Shown: positions 53,077 to 63,011 of the stretch, in pieces | How positions within the stretch are numbered: position 1 is the first letter of the stretch | How the letters are laid out: every line of letters begins with the position of its first letter | NCBI RefSeq assembly: GCF_018780565.1 | Contig: NZ_JADMJN010000005.1 | Span: 1-64,000 of the forward strand | DNA length: 64,000 bases | Origin: Rhodoferax sp. | GTDB taxonomy: Bacteria; Pseudomonadota; Gammaproteobacteria; Burkholderiales; Burkholderiaceae_C | Direction of reading: 5' to 3' | Notes under the pieces: model-generated | Seen by the model: the letters and a program-made list of their open reading frames with translations, nothing else | Told to the model about the DNA's origin: nothing | Database searches by the model: none | Program-made: the position numbers and the translations under genes

Positions 53077-54111
53077 ATGACGCCATCTCACCACCTCAGC
53101 AGCGGCTTTCGCAATAGTGATTCTCACATTCAGATTGGCAACTTTCCCTGGTACGAGATGGTGTGGCGTGGCTTGCGTGGTGATTTCAAACCACTGGCCG
53201 CACCCACGGGCGGCTACGAGGCCTTTGCCCGCGAATGGAGCACCGCAGTCGATCACGCCCGTCTCGCCAAGCGTCAGCACGATCCTGTGGTGACCTGGCT
53301 CGGGCACGTTACCGTCTTGCTGCAAGTGGGTGGGCTCAATATCCTTACCGATCCCACGCTGGCCGGCTTTGCCGGGCCGTATGGCCGCTACGGCGCGCCG
53401 CGCCGCGTACCCGCACCTCTGCAACCCCAGGATCTGCCGCCGATTGATGTGCTGCTGGTCTCGCACAACCACTACGATCACCTGTGTGATGCCACGATCG
53501 CCGGTCTGATGGCTGCCGGTCAACGGCCGCAGATTTTTGTGCCCCTGGGCCTGAAGCCCTGGTTCGATGCACGCCAGATCGCCAATGTGACCGAATTGGA
53601 CTGGTGGAGCCATGCCGAGATCCATGCCAACGCCCAGGGTGCTGCCCTTAAAGACCCGGTACGGCTTCACTTCACCCCCGCGCAGCACTGGAGCCGGCGT
53701 ACGCCTTTCGATACCAATGCCTCACTCTGGGGTGGCTATATGGTGGAGTGGCACCGTGGCGGCGCTGAACCCTGGCGTTTTTTGTTTCCTGGCGACACCG
53801 GTTACTCAGCCGACTTCAAAGCGATACGCAAGCGCCTGGGGGCTGTGGATTTTCTGGCGTTGCCGATTGGCGCCTACCTGCCACGGGATTTCATGAAGAA
53901 TATGCACGTCAACCCTGCCGACGCGGTGCAGCTCATGCTGGATCTGGACGCCCGGCAATCGATGGGTGTGCACTGGGGAACTTTCATGCTGACGCAGGAG
54001 TCTTTCGACCATCCCCCGCGGGACCTTGCCGCCGCATTGCGCCAGCGTGGACTGAGGGATGAACTTGTGTGGCTGATGCGCCATGGCGAAACGCGCACCA
54101 TACCTTTGTGA
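53077..54111 (+). CDS. MBL-fold hydrolase, NAPE-PLD/UlaG-like
   Basis: A 344-aa metallo-beta-lactamase-fold protein with the metal motif LLVSHNHYDHLCDAT, VTWLGHVTVLLQVGG, PAQHWSRRTPFDTNASLWGG and LFPGDTGYSADF. It matches the NAPE-hydrolysing phospholipase D and RomA-type subgroup, so a phospholipid or other phosphodiester substrate is possible. There is no signal peptide. A small lipoprotein gene follows after 12 bp and may be co-transcribed. Confidence 0.88.
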   Translation: MTPSHHLSSGFRNSDSHIQIGNFPWYEMVWRGLRGDFKPLAAPTGGYEAFAREWSTAVDHARLAKRQHDPVVTWLGHVTVLLQVGGLNILTDPTLAGFAGPYGRYGAPRRVPAPLQPQDLPPIDVLLVSHNHYDHLCDATIAGLMAAGQRPQIFVPLGLKPWFDARQIANVTELDWWSHAEIHANAQGAALKDPVRLHFTPAQHWSRRTPFDTNASLWGGYMVEWHRGGAEPWRFLFPGDTGYSADFKAIRKRLGAVDFLALPIGAYLPRDFMKNMHVNPADAVQLMLDLDARQSMGVHWGTFMLTQESFDHPPRDLAAALRQRGLRDELVWLMRHGETRTIPL

Positions 54112-56417: not shown

Positions 56418-57272
56418 TCAGTTGAACTTCATCATGCTCGGGTTGCGGCCTTGAAGCATGTCCTGCATCCGCTTTTCGACGGCTGGCAAGGTGGTCTTCT
56501 GGTGGGTGATGATGTAAAACTGCTTGGCCTGTACTGCGGCGAAGACCTTGTCGGCCACTTCGTCCGGTGAGATACCTGTTTCCACCGCGCTGCTGACGGT
56601 CGAGGTAATCGACATCAGTACCGGGTCGGCCTGGCGGGCCGCCGTCAGCTTCGCATCCGGTTCGTGCTGAACGCTGGTATGGATGGATGTTTTGACCCAC
56701 TCAGGGCACAACACCGACACGCCCAGCTTCGTTTTACGCAGGCTCAAATCGTGATGCAAGCCTTCTGACACCGCCACCACCGCAAACTTGCTGGCGTTGT
56801 AGCTGGCAAACGAGGGGGCCGGTATCAAACCCGCAGCCGATGCGGTGTTGACGATATGGCCTTCTTCGTTCGCTTCCAGCATGCGTGGCACAAACGCCCG
56901 CAGGCCGTTGGTGACTCCGTACAAATTGATGCCCATCACGCGGTCCCATTCCGACTGGGGTGCCGTCCAGGCGGTGTTGGTGGCTGCCACACCGGCGTTG
57001 TTCACCAGCAAATGCACTTTGCCAAACCGCTCAAACGCAAGATCGGCCAAGGCCATCACCTCTGACTCCCTGGAGACATCGGTGCGCAGGCCAACGGCCT
57101 CACAGCCCTTTTGAGAGAACTCCGCCACCACCTTGTCCAGCCCAGCGGCATCCACATCGGCCAATACCAGTTTCATGCCGGCCTGGGCGGCCCGCTCGGC
57201 AATGGCTTTGCCAATGCCGCTTGCGGCCCCGGTGATCACTGCAACTTTTCCCTTGAATTCTTTCATGCTCAT
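56418..57272 (-). CDS. Short-chain dehydrogenase/reductase
   Basis: A 284-aa NAD(P)-dependent SDR with VAVITGAASGIGKAIAERA (TGxxxGxG), LLVNNAGVAATN, catalytic Ser in IVNTASAAGL and YxxxK in YNASKFAVVAVSEGL. The C-terminal extension (DKVFAAVQAKQFYIITHQKT) is common in steroid- or lipid-related SDRs. The substrate is unknown. Probably a separate unit; a patatin gene is upstream on the same strand, 60 bp away. Confidence 0.9.
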   Translation of the reverse strand: MSMKEFKGKVAVITGAASGIGKAIAERAAQAGMKLVLADVDAAGLDKVVAEFSQKGCEAVGLRTDVSRESEVMALADLAFERFGKVHLLVNNAGVAATNTAWTAPQSEWDRVMGINLYGVTNGLRAFVPRMLEANEEGHIVNTASAAGLIPAPSFASYNASKFAVVAVSEGLHHDLSLRKTKLGVSVLCPEWVKTSIHTSVQHEPDAKLTAARQADPVLMSITSTVSSAVETGISPDEVADKVFAAVQAKQFYIITHQKTTLPAVEKRMQDMLQGRNPSMMKFN

Positions 57273-57332
57273 GGTTCCTGTTTGAATGGGGGCGCGGGGA
57301 TGACTCTCCCGGCGCAGGCGTGTAGCTTAGCG

Positions 57333-58454
57333 TCAAGGGCCAGGTTTCACCGGCACACGCAAATCATCCAGGTAATCCTGTTTGATGTTCACCGTGCTCT
57401 GCACACCCAGCGAACTGAAGTGTTCAATCAACCAGGCCTTGGCGTGGGTGCGGCCCAGCTCGTGCAAAGACTGAATCAGGCTGGCGCTGATCGACGTCTT
57501 GGTAGACGCTGCAAACGCTTCCAACGCCTCGCCGCCGTCAATGCGGTGCATCAGCACATCCTTGTAGTGCGCCGGGTCCAGCTTGCCCTCGGCCAGCAGG
57601 CGTTTGACGAAATCAATCGCGCGCATCTCGGCAATCAGGCCCGCGTTGAAGGTCACCTCGTTGATGCGGTCCATGATTTGCGCACTGGTGGTGGGCAACT
57701 GGCTGCGCTTGATCGGGTTGATCTGCACCAGCAGGATGTCGCGCCCCGCGCAGTTGTAAATCAAGGGGTGGATGGCGGGGTTGCCCGAGTAGCCACCATC
57801 CCAAAAGTGGTCGCCCTCTATCTCCACCGCATGAAACGCCAGGGGCAGGCAGGCCGAGGCCATCACCGCTTTGGCGGTCAGGCGCTTGCCCGAGAACACT
57901 TCGGCCTTGCCGGTGGACACGCGGGTGGCCACCACAAACACCTTGAGCGAGTCCAGCCGCTCCAGCGCTTCAAAATCAATCTGCTGCTCCAGAAACTTGC
58001 GCAGCGGGTTGATGTCAAACGGGTTGCTCTGGTAGGGCGACACGGTGCTGCTCCAGAAATTGGTCATGGCGTTGGCCCAGGCGGCCGCAGGCGAGTCGCT
58101 GCCAGCGGCGCGGCCAAACAGCACCTCAAACGGCCCGCGCTGCGCTTCTGACAAGGCACCCATGGTCACAATGCCATTCCAGAAGCTCGCCAGCGCCTGG
58201 CGCGCAGCCTCTCGCGGGTCGCCCTGACCCTTGGTCTGCACCTGGGCAAAGCCATGCGCCAGCGCCACCGCGTTCATGGCCCCGGCGCTGGTGCCGCTGA
58301 TGCCTTCCAATGCAATGCGCCCGTCTTCCAGCAGTGCGTCCAGCACGCCCCACGTGAAGGCCCCGTGCGAGCCGCCACCCTGCAAGGCCAGGTTAACGCC
58401 CGCAGAGCGGGGCAGGGAAGGCTGGGCCGGTTGGGTGTGGGTATTCGAGTTCAT
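57333..58454 (-). CDS. Patatin-like phospholipase
   Basis: A 373-aa patatin-family acyl hydrolase with the oxyanion hole LALQGGGSHGAF, nucleophile Ser in GISGTSAGAMNAV and the DGGYSGNPAI Asp of the catalytic dyad. No signal peptide is evident, so it may be cytoplasmic or injected; no secretion genes are near. Members hydrolyse phospholipids or storage lipids, possibly polyhydroxyalkanoate-related. It is divergent from the spy-like gene. Confidence 0.9.
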   Translation of the reverse strand: MNSNTHTQPAQPSLPRSAGVNLALQGGGSHGAFTWGVLDALLEDGRIALEGISGTSAGAMNAVALAHGFAQVQTKGQGDPREAARQALASFWNGIVTMGALSEAQRGPFEVLFGRAAGSDSPAAAWANAMTNFWSSTVSPYQSNPFDINPLRKFLEQQIDFEALERLDSLKVFVVATRVSTGKAEVFSGKRLTAKAVMASACLPLAFHAVEIEGDHFWDGGYSGNPAIHPLIYNCAGRDILLVQINPIKRSQLPTTSAQIMDRINEVTFNAGLIAEMRAIDFVKRLLAEGKLDPAHYKDVLMHRIDGGEALEAFAASTKTSISASLIQSLHELGRTHAKAWLIEHFSSLGVQSTVNIKQDYLDDLRVPVKPGP

Positions 58455-58490
58455 GTTTCAAGAATAGCAAGAAAGCCCTGCGGCTGAAAT

Positions 58491-58510
58491 AAACCGAAAC
58501 AAACCGATAC
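58491..58510 (+). promoter_or_regulatory. 10-bp-phased direct repeat before the spy-like/two-component operon
   Basis: AAACCGAAAC (58491-58500) is followed immediately by AAACCGATAC (58501-58510), nine of ten bases alike. OmpR-family regulators bind as dimers to two direct half-sites about one helical turn apart, which this matches. It lies 80 bp before an operon that encodes such a regulator, and also in front of the divergent patatin gene. Confidence 0.5.
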
Positions 58511-58590
58511 CGCCCAGACAGCACAGCGCAGCCGGCCGCCCCCATGATTGGCACCATGTTCAACCCCTTCTTCAACAAGGAAACACTGTC

Positions 58591-59061
58591 ATGAAACTCT
58601 GGATCAAACGCACCCTGTTCGGCCTCTTGGGCGCCACCATTCTCGTGGGCGGCCTCAGCGCCTGCGGTCATCGCCACCACGGCTGGGGCGCCAACATGAG
58701 CGCCGAAGAATCGGCCCAGTACCGCAGCAAAATGGTGGACCGTGTCGCCAGCAAGCTCGACCTCAATGTCGACCAGAAAGCCCGCCTGACCGTGCTGGGC
58801 AACAAGCTGCACGATCAGCGCATTGCTTTGATGGGCCAAACCAAAGACCCGCGAGCCGAAATGAAGGCGCTGGTGGCTGGCGACAAATTTGACAAGGCCC
58901 GCGCCCAAACCCTGGTCACTGAAAAAACCACCGCTCTGCAAGCCAAAAGCCCTGAAGTCATTGCCGCCCTGGCTGACTTTTACGACAGCCTGAACCCGGC
59001 CCAGCAGCAAAAGGTGCGCGACTTCATGGAGCACCGCGGCCGCTGGTTCAGCCGCGGATAA
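58591..59061 (+). CDS. Spy/CpxP-like periplasmic stress protein
   Basis: A 156-aa exported protein with a lipobox-like signal (TLFGLLGATILVGGLSAC). A His-rich patch (GHRHHGWG) and a helical body follow, ending in NPAQQQKVRDFMEHRGRW, a degenerate LTxxQ motif. Spy and CpxP act as periplasmic chaperones and feedback inhibitors of the CpxA sensor. It lies 17 bp before a response regulator and histidine kinase, the same arrangement as cpxP-cpxRA, so a metal or misfolding stress feedback role is likely. Confidence 0.87.
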   Translation: MKLWIKRTLFGLLGATILVGGLSACGHRHHGWGANMSAEESAQYRSKMVDRVASKLDLNVDQKARLTVLGNKLHDQRIALMGQTKDPRAEMKALVAGDKFDKARAQTLVTEKTTALQAKSPEVIAALADFYDSLNPAQQQKVRDFMEHRGRWFSRG

Positions 59062-59078
59062 GCGGTGACAATGTCAGC

Positions 59079-59771
59079 ATGACCCGCATCCTGCTGATCG
59101 ACGACGACGCTCAACTCGGGCCGCCCCTGGCGGCCTATTTTCAGCGCTTTGACATGACCCTGGAGTGCGCCCTGCGCCCCAGCGCAGGGCTTGCGCTCTT
59201 GCGCCAGAGCGGCCACCAAAACGGCTTCGACGCCGCCATCCTGGATGTGATGCTGCCTGAGATGGACGGCTTTGAACTCTGCCGCACCATCCGCAAAGAG
59301 AGCGACATTCCCATCATCATGCTCACCGCCCGTGGCGACGTGATGGACCGTGTGGTTGGCCTGGAGCTGGGTGCCGACGACTACGTGCCCAAACCCTTTG
59401 AACCGCGCGAACTGGTGGCCCGTGTGCAAACCGTGCTGCGCCGTCGCAGCACCAGCGCTCCGGCGGCAGCGCGGCTCACATTTGAAGGCCTGGTGATTGA
59501 CCCGAGCACCCGCACCGTGCTGCGCAACAGCGAGCCAGTGGAGCTGACCAGCACCGAATTTGACCTGCTGCACCTGCTGGCGCGTGACGCCGGCAAGGTG
59601 TTTACCCGCGACGACATCCTCAACCACCTGCGCGGCCACGAGGCCGAGCTCTACACCCGCGCGGTCGACATCGTAGTGAGCCGCCTGCGCAAAAAGCTTG
59701 AACCATTGGATTGCATTAAAACCCTGCGCAACGCCGGCTACTCACTCGCGGTAGGCCGCGTCCAGCCATGA
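59079..59771 (+). CDS. OmpR-family response regulator
   Basis: A 230-aa regulator. The receiver domain (1-120) has ILLIDDDAQLG and the phospho-acceptor D56 in AAILDVMLPEMDGFELC, with Lys in DDYVPKPFEPRE. The C-terminal winged helix (about 130-228) has LTSTEFDLLHLLARDAGKVF and TLRNAGYSLAV. It is the partner of the kinase gene, which starts with ATGA overlap, and resembles CpxR in context. Direct repeats upstream of the operon may be its target. Confidence 0.94.
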   Translation: MTRILLIDDDAQLGPPLAAYFQRFDMTLECALRPSAGLALLRQSGHQNGFDAAILDVMLPEMDGFELCRTIRKESDIPIIMLTARGDVMDRVVGLELGADDYVPKPFEPRELVARVQTVLRRRSTSAPAAARLTFEGLVIDPSTRTVLRNSEPVELTSTEFDLLHLLARDAGKVFTRDDILNHLRGHEAELYTRAVDIVVSRLRKKLEPLDCIKTLRNAGYSLAVGRVQP

Positions 59772-61144
59772 ACAAGCCGCAAACTGCCCAGCACCCGCGT
59801 TGGCACCGCCGTGCCCGCCACGCGCTGGCCCACTCGCTGCGTGTGCGACTGGTGGCCCTGTTTTTGCTGCTGGCCCTGGCCATGGCGGCAACGTTTTTGT
59901 TTGGCATGCAGCATGCTTTGTCTAGCGGCTGGCGCGAGGCGGCCCGCCCGCTGGTGAGCGACTATGTGGACCGCCTGGCTACCGAGCTGGGCAGCCCGCC
60001 CAGCGTGGAGCGCGCTCAAGCCCTGGTGCAGCGCCTGCCGGTAACCGTGCGCATCAGCGGCCCGCAAGTCAACTGGCGCAGCCACCCCAGCACGCCCGAG
60101 CGCGAGCATCGCTTGAACGACGACAACCGCTGGAACCGCGACGAGCCGCGCCTGCTGGAGCGCACCACCGCCGATGGTCACCGCATCCACTTTGGCCTGA
60201 ACGTGCAGGTGTGGCAAGACCGCCCGCGCTATGTCGGCTGGGCCACCCTGGCCGGGCTGCTGCTGCTCACTGCGCTGGCCTACGCCCGCGTGCGCCGCCT
60301 GCTGCGCCCGCTGGATGACATTCGCGCCGGTGCCTTGCGCTTTGGCCAGGGCGACTTTGCCCAGCCCATACCCGTGCGCCATCCGGCCCGGCCCGATGAA
60401 CTGGGCGAGCTCGCTGCCACCATCAACACCATGGGTGGTGATATTCACCAAATGCTGGAGGCCAAGCGCGCACTTCTGCTGGCCATCAGCCATGAGCTGC
60501 GCAGCCCGCTGACCCGCGCGCGCCTGAACACCGAGCTGTTGCCCGAAACCCCGGAGGTGCAACCCAGCCGCGAAGCCCTGCTGCGCGACCTGGCCCAAAT
60601 GCGCGACCTCATCACCGACCTGTTGGAAAGCGAACGCCTGGCCAGCCCGCACGCTGCGTTGCACCGCGAACCCACCGACCTGGCCGCGCTGGTGGCCGAG
60701 GTGGTGGCCGGGCTGGACGGCGCGCCCGCCGTCACGCAGCTACTGCCCGCCGACTTGCCGCCCATGGCGCTGGACCGCACCCGCATACGCCTGCTGCTGC
60801 GCAACCTGCTGGACAACGCATTGCGCCACAGCGGCAATGCCGCGCAGCCGCCCAGCATTGCCGTGCACACCGAGCCGGGTAACGTTGGGCAGGGCAAAGC
60901 AGGGCCGGGCGTGCGCATCACTGTGCGCGACTTCGGCCCCGGCGTCGACGAAGCCGCCTTGCCCCACTTGGCCCAACCCTTCTACCGCCCTGACGCCGCC
61001 CGCACCCGCGCCGAAGGCGGCGTGGGTTTGGGCCTGTACCTGTGCAAGCTGGTGGCCCAGGCCCATGGCGGCAGCTTCACGGTGCGCAATGCGCAGCCGG
61101 GGCTGGAGGTGAGTGTGCTGTTGCCCAGGATAGATGCTATTTAA
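59768..61144 (+). CDS. Sensor histidine kinase
   Basis: A 458-aa membrane kinase. TM1 is at about 25-46 (LVALFLLLALAMAATFLF), followed by a periplasmic region, TM2 at about 157-178 (LAGLLLLTALAYARV) and HAMP. The dimerisation domain has the phospho-acceptor H242 in AISHELRSPLTRARLN, and the HATPase domain has LLRNLLDNALRHSG and GVGLGLYLCKLVAQAHGG. EnvZ/CpxA type. It overlaps the regulator gene by 4 bases. Its last codons and TAA stop are made from a bipartite repeat. Confidence 0.94.
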   Translation: MNKPQTAQHPRWHRRARHALAHSLRVRLVALFLLLALAMAATFLFGMQHALSSGWREAARPLVSDYVDRLATELGSPPSVERAQALVQRLPVTVRISGPQVNWRSHPSTPEREHRLNDDNRWNRDEPRLLERTTADGHRIHFGLNVQVWQDRPRYVGWATLAGLLLLTALAYARVRRLLRPLDDIRAGALRFGQGDFAQPIPVRHPARPDELGELAATINTMGGDIHQMLEAKRALLLAISHELRSPLTRARLNTELLPETPEVQPSREALLRDLAQMRDLITDLLESERLASPHAALHREPTDLAALVAEVVAGLDGAPAVTQLLPADLPPMALDRTRIRLLLRNLLDNALRHSGNAAQPPSIAVHTEPGNVGQGKAGPGVRITVRDFGPGVDEAALPHLAQPFYRPDAARTRAEGGVGLGLYLCKLVAQAHGGSFTVRNAQPGLEVSVLLPRIDAI

Positions 61145-61190
61145 TTAATAGCTCTTTGTGCAATAGATACGAGGGCTACAGGCCGTTTTT
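61134..61190 (+). repeat. Bipartite 3'-end repeat, copy 6 (histidine kinase stop)
   Basis: GCTAT-N7-ATAGC (61136-61152) is followed after 20 nt by GGGCTACAGGCC (61173-61184), 11 of 12 bases as in the consensus, and then GTTTTTT. The TAA of the histidine kinase gene (61142-61144) is within the palindrome. Orientation is that of the kinase gene. Confidence 0.75.
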
Positions 61191-61304
61191 TCTCTAAAAT
61201 TCGTTCGCTTTGACCGAGGCCCTGGAACGGCTGCCGACGCAGGCAATATAAACAGCTGAAGAGGCCATCTCCGACTCGAACTTTTGCAAGCACGGCCCGT
61301 CTAG

Positions 61305-63011
61305 TCAGGCCTCATCATCCAGATTGCGCCCCCGGCTGCTGCGCCAGATCGAGCGCACCAGCCACAGGCCGCCAACCACGGCGCCGCTGAAACCCAGGAA
61401 GCCGAACGCGGGCAGGCCGAACAGACTGGGGCCACCCTGCACGTTCATGACGATGGACGAGCCAATGATCAGTGCTGCAATCACCAGTGCCATCGCCAGG
61501 CGGTTGGCGGCGCGGTCGATCTGGTCGCCCACGCGCTTGAGATGCGCCAGTTCGATGCCCACGTGCACCCGTCCGCGCCGCGCATTGCGCAGCAGGCGCG
61601 ACACATCGTGTGGCAGTTGTTCGGCCAGCGCCAGTGTGCGGCGCAGTGTTTTCCAGGCGCGCGTGGCAAGGACCTTGGGCTGGTAATTTGTTCGCACCAT
61701 CTGGCGTAGCATGGGGGTGGCCTGCGTGGCCATGTGAAAGTCGGGGTCCAGCCCACGCCCCATGCCTTCAAGCGAGATAAAGGCCTTGATCAGCAGCGCC
61801 AGATCCGACGGCAGACCCAGGTGGTGGTCGCGCAGGATGGCGGTCACATCGCCGAGCATCTGGCCCAGGCTGAGTTGGGCCAGCGGTGTGCCGTGGTACT
61901 GGTCTACAAACGCCTCAATCTCGGTTTCAAGCTGCGACAGGTTCACGCCATGGTCGTCACCGGTCCAGTCCAGCAGTACGTCGGCCACGGTTTGTGGATG
62001 GCGCTCCACCAGGCCCAGCAGCAGTTGCAGCAGCTCTTCGCGCCGCCGCTCCGACAGGCGGCCGATCATGCCGAAATCAATGAAGGCAATGCGGTTGTCG
62101 CTCAGGTAAAACACGTTACCGGGGTGCGGATCGGCATGAAAGAAGCCATCCTGCACAATCATCTTGAGTACCGCGTGGGCGCCGCGCTGTGCCAGCAGGG
62201 TGCGGTTGAAACCGGCCTGCGGGGTGAGCTGGTCCAGCTTGTCGCCGGGAATACCGCCCACATAGTCCTGTACATTGACGCGTTCGCCAGTGTGAGCCCA
62301 GTGCACACGTGGAATCACGATATGGGGCAGCAGCGCCATGTTGGCGGCAATGCGTTCAGCGTGGCGGCATTCGGCGGCCAGGTCCAGCTCGCGGCGCAGT
62401 GATTTGGCAAACTCGCGCACCAGCAGTTGTGGGCGATAGGGTTTGAGCGCGGGCATTTCGGACTCTGCCAGCGCTGCCAGGCGCCCCAGCAGGCGCAAGT
62501 CGGCTTCGATCACGTCTGTGATGCCGGGGCGGCGGATCTTGACGATGACTTCGGTGCCGTCCTTGAGTTGTGCGCGATGTACCTGTGCGATGGACGCTGC
62601 CGCCAGCGGCTCCACGTCAAAGCGGGCAAAAATGTCTTGCGGTTCACCGCCCAGGTCTTCGCGCAATTGGGGTAGCAGCACATCGAGCGCGATCGCCGGC
62701 ACGTGGCTGTGAAGTTTTTCAAACTCGGTAATCCACTCGGGGCCAAACAGGTCGGCACGGCCCGCCAGGATTTGCCCGAGTTTGACGAAGGTGGGGCCCA
62801 GCTCTTCCATGGCCAGCCGCACCTGAACCGGGGGCTCAATGCGCGCGAGATCGGCCGCGTGCTCCCAGTGCAGGGCGTGACCCGCCCGCTCCAGCCGGTC
62901 GGCAAGGCCCAGGCGGCGTACGCTGTCGCCAAAGCCGTGGCGAATCAACACACCCACAATTTCATTGAGGCGGCCCATGTCACGGGCAGCGCCCAAAGTC
63001 TCGATCAGCAT
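61305..63011 (-). CDS. ABC1/UbiB-family kinase-like protein
   Basis: A 568-aa protein of the UbiB/ABC1 (ADCK) atypical kinase family: the KxGQ-type motif FVKLGQILAGRADLF, Ala-rich loop AAASIAQVHRAQLKDG, ion-pair Lys in EVIVKIRRPG, and IAFIDFGMIGRLSE (DFG-like). Two hydrophobic segments near the C-terminus (about 500-545) form a membrane anchor. These proteins support ubiquinone synthesis or act as ATPases; the relationship to a particular ubi gene is not shown here. It is the only gene on its unit. Confidence 0.92.
   Translation of the reverse strand: MLIETLGAARDMGRLNEIVGVLIRHGFGDSVRRLGLADRLERAGHALHWEHAADLARIEPPVQVRLAMEELGPTFVKLGQILAGRADLFGPEWITEFEKLHSHVPAIALDVLLPQLREDLGGEPQDIFARFDVEPLAAASIAQVHRAQLKDGTEVIVKIRRPGITDVIEADLRLLGRLAALAESEMPALKPYRPQLLVREFAKSLRRELDLAAECRHAERIAANMALLPHIVIPRVHWAHTGERVNVQDYVGGIPGDKLDQLTPQAGFNRTLLAQRGAHAVLKMIVQDGFFHADPHPGNVFYLSDNRIAFIDFGMIGRLSERRREELLQLLLGLVERHPQTVADVLLDWTGDDHGVNLSQLETEIEAFVDQYHGTPLAQLSLGQMLGDVTAILRDHHLGLPSDLALLIKAFISLEGMGRGLDPDFHMATQATPMLRQMVRTNYQPKVLATRAWKTLRRTLALAEQLPHDVSRLLRNARRGRVHVGIELAHLKRVGDQIDRAANRLAMALVIAALIIGSSIVMNVQGGPSLFGLPAFGFLGFSGAVVGGLWLVRSIWRSSRGRNLDDEA

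Follow-up and report, generated by a model that had tools for sequence, protein, structure and literature searches.

In Rhodoferax sp., an array of direct repeats lies 95 bp before an operon coding for a spy-like protein, an OmpR-family response regulator and a sensor histidine kinase. Judged from comparative sequence analysis, this array very probably (at a probability of about 0.85) forms the core of the operator for the operon's own promoter, where it would act in an autoregulatory and activating manner. The full array, GAAAT-N5-GAAAC-N5-GATAC-N6-GACA, occupies positions 58486-58520 of the window (i.e., the whole stretch of 64,000 nucleotides analysed), with a spacing of 10, 10 and 11 bp. 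It is composed of three half-sites on the + strand, GAAAT (58486..58490), GAAAC (58496..58500) and GATAC (58506..58510), followed by a GANA element, GACA (58517..58520, + strand), which is located 11 bp past the third half-site. Offsets are counted from the GAAAC half-site (58496-58500). The conserved letters of the first half-site are G (0.99), A (0.96) and A (0.99) at offsets -10, -9 and -7, and those of the GANA element are G (0.97), A (0.95) and A (0.99) at +21, +22 and +24; the second and third half-sites are defined by a weight matrix and by counts in orthologs. The GACA element may represent either a degenerate fourth half-site or a promoter element that touches the -35.

The initial annotation had described a tandem 10-bp repeat, AAACCGAAAC-AAACCGATAC, at 58491-58510. 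This 20-mer is located exactly there and is real, but it under-describes the element: it forms the middle of the array and contains the second and third half-sites. Its 10-bp periodicity stands, whereas its register is only one phase of the longer array, as the unit kept in relatives is GANAC-N5, with the GACA element one base out of step (+11). The 20-mer is the sole match in the window at up to three mismatches, and one of 100 shuffles gave such a match. A looser form, AAACCGNNACAAACCGNNAC, has two matches at up to three mismatches, a number reached by 10 of 100 shuffles; the repeat could therefore not be settled from the window alone, and it is its conservation that settles the matter.

The operon is read from the + strand. 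Its first gene (58591..59061) codes for a spy/CpxP-like protein (LTXXQ, Metal_resist), the second (59079..59771) for an OmpR/PhoB-family response regulator, recognized by its domains and profile matches and presumed to bind the array, and the third (59768..61144) for a sensor histidine kinase (HAMP, HisKA, HATPase_c), the start of which overlaps the regulator stop by 4 bp. The assignment of the regulator to the OmpR family, already made from the sequence, is confirmed by its Response_reg (PF00072, 8.2e-24) and Trans_reg_C (PF00486, 1.2e-21) domains. The divergent neighbour, a patatin-like phospholipase gene (57333..58454, - strand), lies outside the conserved unit. The spy-like protein exhibits a lipobox-like LSAC motif, seen by eye near the N-terminus after the signal stretch, and may therefore be a lipoprotein. 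In some relatives (e.g., L143, L145, L149, L151, L158, L160 and L161) the predicted N-terminus of the spy-like protein is His-rich instead.

The conservation of the array was assessed in 138 loci that encode the regulator, comprising that of the window, 11 found among 60 genomes of the genus and 126 found among 399 genomes of the family. Regulator matches cut by contig ends or by a late start were left out of this set (G100, G244, G318, G332, G375 and G433). The genomes are related by descent, and all counts of loci and genomes are non-independent. A spy-like gene was detected by tblastn in 137 of the 138 loci, and likewise in L157 in a separate search (E 7.6e-8). In 115 of 137 operons, the 200 bp preceding spy contain the pattern GAAAC-N5-GAWAC with up to one mismatch; shuffled sequences gave a mean of 1.6 of 137, and a 200-bp stretch inside the spy coding sequence gave none in 137. 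An iterated weight matrix gave a consensus of roughly YGAMAY-AAAMC-GAAAC-AMRSC-GAWAC-CGCSCY-GARA-N-GAC, in which the four GANA cores are placed at -10, 0, +10 and +21. With this matrix, 129 of 137 loci showed the array no more than 330 bp from spy, and its usual distance to the spy start is 82 to 115 bp. In 132 of the 138 loci (scores 28 to 65) it is situated 5' of the regulator and near the operon start; in the six others (L240-L245; 42 to 51 bits) it is further up, before an extra leading gene, such that all 138 orthologous operons possess it. The other scanned loci score at most 4.5, second arrays excepted. In the genomes outside the set, a spy-like gene follows the array in G433, G100, G244, G318 and G332, and G375 has it at the expected distance on the contig that also carries the regulator gene. 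Hardly any conservation is seen in the DNA at -60 to -15 from the array, which therefore stands out as a conserved island.

A short exported-protein gene separates the array from spy in L240-L245, in L091 (the same as L247) and in L111. Wherever such an extra gene leads the operon (eight loci), the array is found 87-94 bp before it, which argues that it belongs to the operon start and not to the adjacent gene. The exported protein, of 120-127 aa, is the first gene product of the operon, encoded directly 3' of the array, in L240-L247 and L290, representing several genera; the only one tested (L241) has no Pfam match. Loss of the repeat in relatives with the same operon had been named at the outset as an outcome that would refute the proposal, and the repeat is retained in 138 of 138 loci. 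Half-sites one helical turn apart, as originally proposed, are likewise a property of the orthologous operons at large. The array is unusually well conserved and ordinary in kind, its direct repeats being spaced by one helical turn ahead of the target.

The position of the array relative to the -35 and -10 elements is also conserved (132 loci). A NANNAT hexamer occurs at exactly +47 in 121 of the 132 loci and in two at most at any other offset tested between +30 and +69; the remaining 11 have no NANNAT at +47. The most common +47 hexamer is CACCAT (69 of 132 loci), and GAC is found at +26, 17 bp before this hexamer, in 71. We infer that the +47 hexamer is the -10 and that the element at +24/+26 is the -35. 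In the window, the putative -35 would be AGCACA (58520..58525, + strand), at the fixed offset of +24 and with CAC at +26, and the putative -10 CATGAT (58543..58548, + strand), 17 bp after the -35, with its NANNAT at +47. A generic sigma-70 scan called no promoter in the 58520-58548 region, nor a consensus promoter on either strand, a result to be expected of an activator-dependent promoter and equally of no promoter. An activator positioned just upstream of a poor -35 would fit an activator-dependent promoter, a reading drawn from the general behaviour of OmpR-family regulators.

In the proposed mechanism, phosphorylated regulator molecules would bind head-to-tail, one per helical turn, on GAAAT, GAAAC and GATAC, and a fourth, degenerate contact (GACA) may touch the -35. 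The bound regulator would recruit RNA polymerase to a weak sigma-70-type promoter (-35 AGCACA, -10 CATGAT), and envelope stress would thereby raise the transcription of spy, the regulator gene and the kinase gene. Autoregulation by the operon's OmpR-family regulator, as suggested by the initial annotation, appears strongly supported, since the array is conserved in both sequence and position, occurs together with the operon and keeps a fixed distance to a -10-like hexamer, and the regulation is probably activating. We infer the role of the regulator as the binder, as well as activation, the dependence on phosphorylation and the envelope signal.

Control of the divergent patatin gene had been postulated in addition. 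The local layout of the window gives some reason for it: the patatin start (58454) is only 31 bp from half-site 1, such that the patatin promoter must lie in or beside the array, and in some distant relatives an array is found between a regulator gene and a divergent gene. Nevertheless, it is unlikely that the array also controls patatin in the window's species, as patatin adjoins the array in one of 138 loci, the window alone (the sequence available ahead of the array amounts to 786 bases in the median locus and to fewer than 300 in 4 of 132). A search for patatin in the further-upstream DNA of L240-L245 and L247 found none. Among 16 genomes searched, 9 contain patatin relatives, the window's included; in the 8 others these relatives (44-79% identity) reside on a different contig from the spy operon, or ~450 kb off (G036), and the strong array there occurs only at the spy operon. 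The lack of a consensus promoter on either strand at the locus counts against the proposal as well, although it says little. A shared lipase regulon was also considered and rejected: in G130 (genus g72) a patatin-like gene is divergent from a metallo-beta-lactamase-fold gene preceded by an array, but it matches the window's patatin no better than at E 0.49. Steric effects on patatin are possible in the window's species; on present data, the link to patatin is an accident of one genome's arrangement, and it warns against taking divergent neighbours as targets.

It is improbable that the operon's regulator binds the array to repress its own promoter, or to both repress and activate it. The array does reach the inferred -35, where a bound protein could block the polymerase, but the three well-conserved half-sites are upstream of the -35 and leave the -10 free, and the weak hexamers suit an activated promoter. 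The comparable cpxP gene of P. aeruginosa, moreover, is up in a Cpx-activating mutant, with a log2FC of 8.79 (available text of PMC12802237).

The association of the array with the regulator was examined using model R1, a sequence-only model of 31 arrays and 44 columns. Operon loci served to train both R1 and the weight matrix; training sequences came from 26 of the 133 operon-positive family genomes, and 107 are outside the training set, though all share descent. Of the 399 family genomes, 140 have an R1 match at E up to 0.01. All 133 regulator-positive genomes (regulator match at E up to 1e-60) carry an array at E<1e-3, compared to two of the 266 regulator-negative ones, G258 (3.8e-6) and G249 (6.7e-6). 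In G249 the array is followed by a spy gene that a contig end truncates, and in G258 it stops 8 bases from the contig end. Five further regulator-negative genomes have matches with E between 0.0016 and 0.0092. The window's own genome contains one strong array (R1: 38 bits, E 5.1e-9), the next match being at 14.6 bits (E 0.13), and the second-best score of the extended matrix in the window is -13.7. Each of the 11 same-genus relatives that possess the operon likewise contains one strong array, at the spy operon, and a scan of the 18 nearest paralogous regulator loci of the genus (L013-L030) found no array.

These distributions bear on the reading in which another family-wide transcription factor, and not the operon's regulator, binds the array. 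Co-occurrence shows linkage, and dozens of related regulators exist in these genomes; yet, of the 266 family genomes without the regulator, 264 have no array at E<1e-3, all 19 family genomes with a second array have the operon, and in the distant loci L302 and L379 an array that does not precede a spy gene still adjoins the regulator gene. We consider this reading improbable as well. Chance origin of the repeat, or an RNA leader element, can practically be dismissed: short imperfect repeats can arise by chance, but conservation in 115 of 137 operons against a shuffled mean of 1.6 refutes this, and the array is upstream of the inferred -10, in a region that folds no better than shuffles (z -0.14). 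No Rfam family reached its gathering score at 57000-62000, and neither the RNA-element nor the terminator readings gained support from the folding, promoter and Rfam scans.

A genome-wide regulon defined by a loose 15-mer (up to two mismatches) was rejected, as the window's genome has 82 matches compared to 95 for the reversed control; among 30 of these matches with loci, only the array's own two overlapping matches exceed 0 with the extended matrix. Even the exact 15-mer is unspecific, occurring in 53 of the 133 genomes with the operon and in 19 of the 266 without it, whereas the 44-column model is specific. The circuit in the window's genome thus seems devoted to itself and its Spy-like protein.

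The initial annotation had suggested a search for the same repeat before other envelope-stress genes. The window's own genome, with its one strong site, shows no such sites, whereas some other genera do. Second array matches were found in 19 family genomes, all operon-positive, and 18 of them (all but G201) were inspected. They precede small exported proteins in five g86 genomes, G337 and G272, the array of G272 being inside the operon itself. The G337 protein is a DUF4148 protein (92.8 bits), and the one g86 protein tested scored 26.8 compared to a DUF4148 cut-off of 27 bits; DUF4148 or DUF4148-like small exported proteins follow the second arrays of L280-L284 and L289. In g86 the array is ~350 bp before the ORF, a gap wide enough for a leader or a small gene that escaped annotation. 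Other second arrays are found before an outer-membrane efflux protein in two g40 genomes (one tested: OEP), a metallo-beta-lactamase-fold protein in three g72 genomes (one tested: PF12706), a protein without a Pfam match in two g139 genomes (one tested) and a LysR regulator in four g70 genomes (one tested). In L285 and L286, from two genomes of one genus, the array lies ~180-190 bp before the OEP gene, which suggests that the regulator is linked to efflux there. In the g70 loci (L220-L223) it is directly upstream of the LysR-type gene, and its -10-like hexamer immediately precedes the probable start ATG. All inspected second arrays except the three g72 sites retain the -10 at +47. This distribution suggests a small, envelope-flavoured regulon that was recruited separately per lineage, none of it in the window's genome. 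The window does code for a PF12706 protein (53077-54108) related to that of g72 (34.6%, 6.8e-38); the extended-matrix scan found no array upstream of it.

The system was compared with known two-component systems. Like Cpx (CpxP-CpxR-CpxA/CpxS; E. coli, Pseudomonas), it links an LTXXQ-type periplasmic protein to an OmpR-family regulator and a kinase, and its direct repeats have a period of 10. The CpxR site of P. aeruginosa cpxP is located at -81 from the ATG (available text of PMC12802237), compared to 95 bp here, and in both Cpx and Rst the ten-bp direct repeats of an OmpR-family regulator, together with the LTXXQ protein in the case of Cpx, resemble the present arrangement 80-95 bp upstream (excerpts of PMC12802237 and PMC4117788). 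Unlike Cpx, for which the same available text gives ~100 target promoters in E. coli and 37 predicted units in PAO1 (PMC12802237), the window's genome has one strong site. The CpxR box is GTAAA-N5-GTAAA, whereas inspection of the DNA before the window's cpxP-like gene reveals GANAC-N5-GAWAC, as part of three half-sites spaced 10/10 and a fourth element at +11. The window's proteins scored below the NCBIfam cut-offs for CpxR (154/341 bits), CpxA (101.8/486) and Spy (36.5/174). RstA/RstB also employs tandem half-sites one turn apart, and the GTTAC form of the array found outside the family (see below) resembles the RstA box TACATNTNGTTACA (available text of PMC4117788). The window operon differs from RstA/RstB in its spy-like gene and in the family half-site GAAAC/GATAC, and the equivalog cut-offs were missed again (RstA 151.1/330 bits, RstB 123.5/478), although the kinase scores highest with the EnvZ, MtrB and RstB models. 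OmpR/EnvZ belongs to the same protein family, and its 20-bp sites consist of two tandem 10-bp half-sites (accessible part of PMC7380067), a layout like that of the array; here too the scores were below the cut-offs (OmpR 176.7/331 bits, EnvZ 128.3/415). The system was not assigned to Cpx, Rst or OmpR because its proteins fall below the equivalog cut-offs, and for Cpx and Rst the box sequence disagrees as well. BesR, DzrR and AgrR of Burkholderiales and Dickeya are likewise OmpR-family regulators of envelope or metal stress, some of them in related bacteria. Their boxes, as given in the available text of PMC9426598, PMC10052836 and PMC7380067, are a TGCG-type element, CTCCAT repeats and an ATTACA inverted repeat, and none of these equals the window array. 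In the open-licence literature, judged mostly by title and the start of the abstract, we found no identifiable description of the box or of the operon in the family. A widespread envelope-stress two-component system, apparently undescribed in the literature searched, thus gains a precise candidate operator.

Outside the family, a search of 300 genomes of the order yielded four relatives (G593, G673, G702 and G523). In G593 (72% identity) a GAAAC-type array is accompanied by a -10 at +47, no array was found in G673 and G702 (50-51% identity), and the array-like element of G523 (GTTAC/GAAAC/GATAC, 4.5 bits) is oriented away from the regulator. Among 80 named loci, only L298-L300 score as arrays (above 50 bits); GTTAC-like repeats were seen by eye in L301-L303. 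The array is present in records from Acidovorax sp. and Polaromonas sp. In L301 (a gammaproteobacterial MAG) and L303 (a desulfobacterial MAG), the GTTAC-like half-sites have the same arrangement, before genes for a small exported protein, the regulator and the kinase, with TACTAT at +47 and TATAGT at +46, respectively.

The pattern GTTAC-N5-GTTAC-N5-GTTAC was then sought in 350 genomes of the class and gave 16 matches in 15 genomes, compared to seven matches in four genomes (four of them in one genome) for the reversed pattern. In ten of the 16, the gene that follows is spy-like or a small exported gene in the equivalent position, identified by a tblastn spy match in eight and by the regulator and position in L410 and L417; L410 is apparently the same sequence as L301. 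A regulator match is present in nine of the ten loci, with none in L422. The listed ORF starts at +83 to +98 in eight of the ten; L421 has no ATG ORF listed, and the ORF of L422 is open further upstream. GANA at +21 and TANNNT at +47 each occur in nine of the ten and in none of the other six matches, the TANNNT criterion having been chosen post hoc; the NANNAT rule of the family is passed by four of the ten. The +21 element is GAAA or GATA in nine of the ten spy-linked loci. This persistence beside GTTAC half-sites indicates either a degenerate half-site or a promoter element, and the lack of covariation with the half-site sequence in GTTAC lineages weakens the notion of a full half-site.

The DNA-binding domains of the two types of regulator were then compared, using 137 GAAAC-type proteins and eight of the GTTAC type (L302 and L303 included, and L301 and L410 probably identical; four others were cut or not found). 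Among the GAAAC-type proteins, the recognition-helix region TRAVDI-VSRLRKKL hardly varies: R194, A195, D197, S201, R202 and R204 are present in all 137, and V196 in 133. Position 187 is occupied by H, Q or R in 131 of 137 GAAAC-type proteins and by I in all eight GTTAC-type ones. The corresponding residues in position 193 are T (127 of 137) and S or N (8/8), those in position 205 are K/R (137 of 137) and mostly Q, and those in position 218, in the wing, are N (129 of 137) and G (7/8). These differences, which are confounded with ancestry, provide a lead as to the change in specificity. We consider it reasonably probable, from the sequences compared, that the geometry (half-sites at -10/0/+10, GANA at +21, -10 at +47 and the first ATG at ~+90) was preserved in beta- and gammaproteobacterial lineages alike as the half-site went from GTTAC to GAAAC/GATAC, accompanied by changes in a few positions of the DNA-binding domain (187 from Ile to His/Gln/Arg and, in the wing, 218 from Gly to Asn), in a near-dedicated single-operon circuit to which a few further envelope genes were recruited per lineage. 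The series from GTTAC to GAAAC at constant spacing would then represent a natural experiment on specificity change in the OmpR family with promoter geometry kept.

In L302, L379, L413 and L414, an array-like repeat is located 59-96 bp from the regulator gene and reads away from it, and it is therefore not simply the promoter array of the operon. An exported-protein ORF follows the repeat at +131 to +167 in L379, L413 and L414, an arrangement that possibly reflects a related circuit with another partner.
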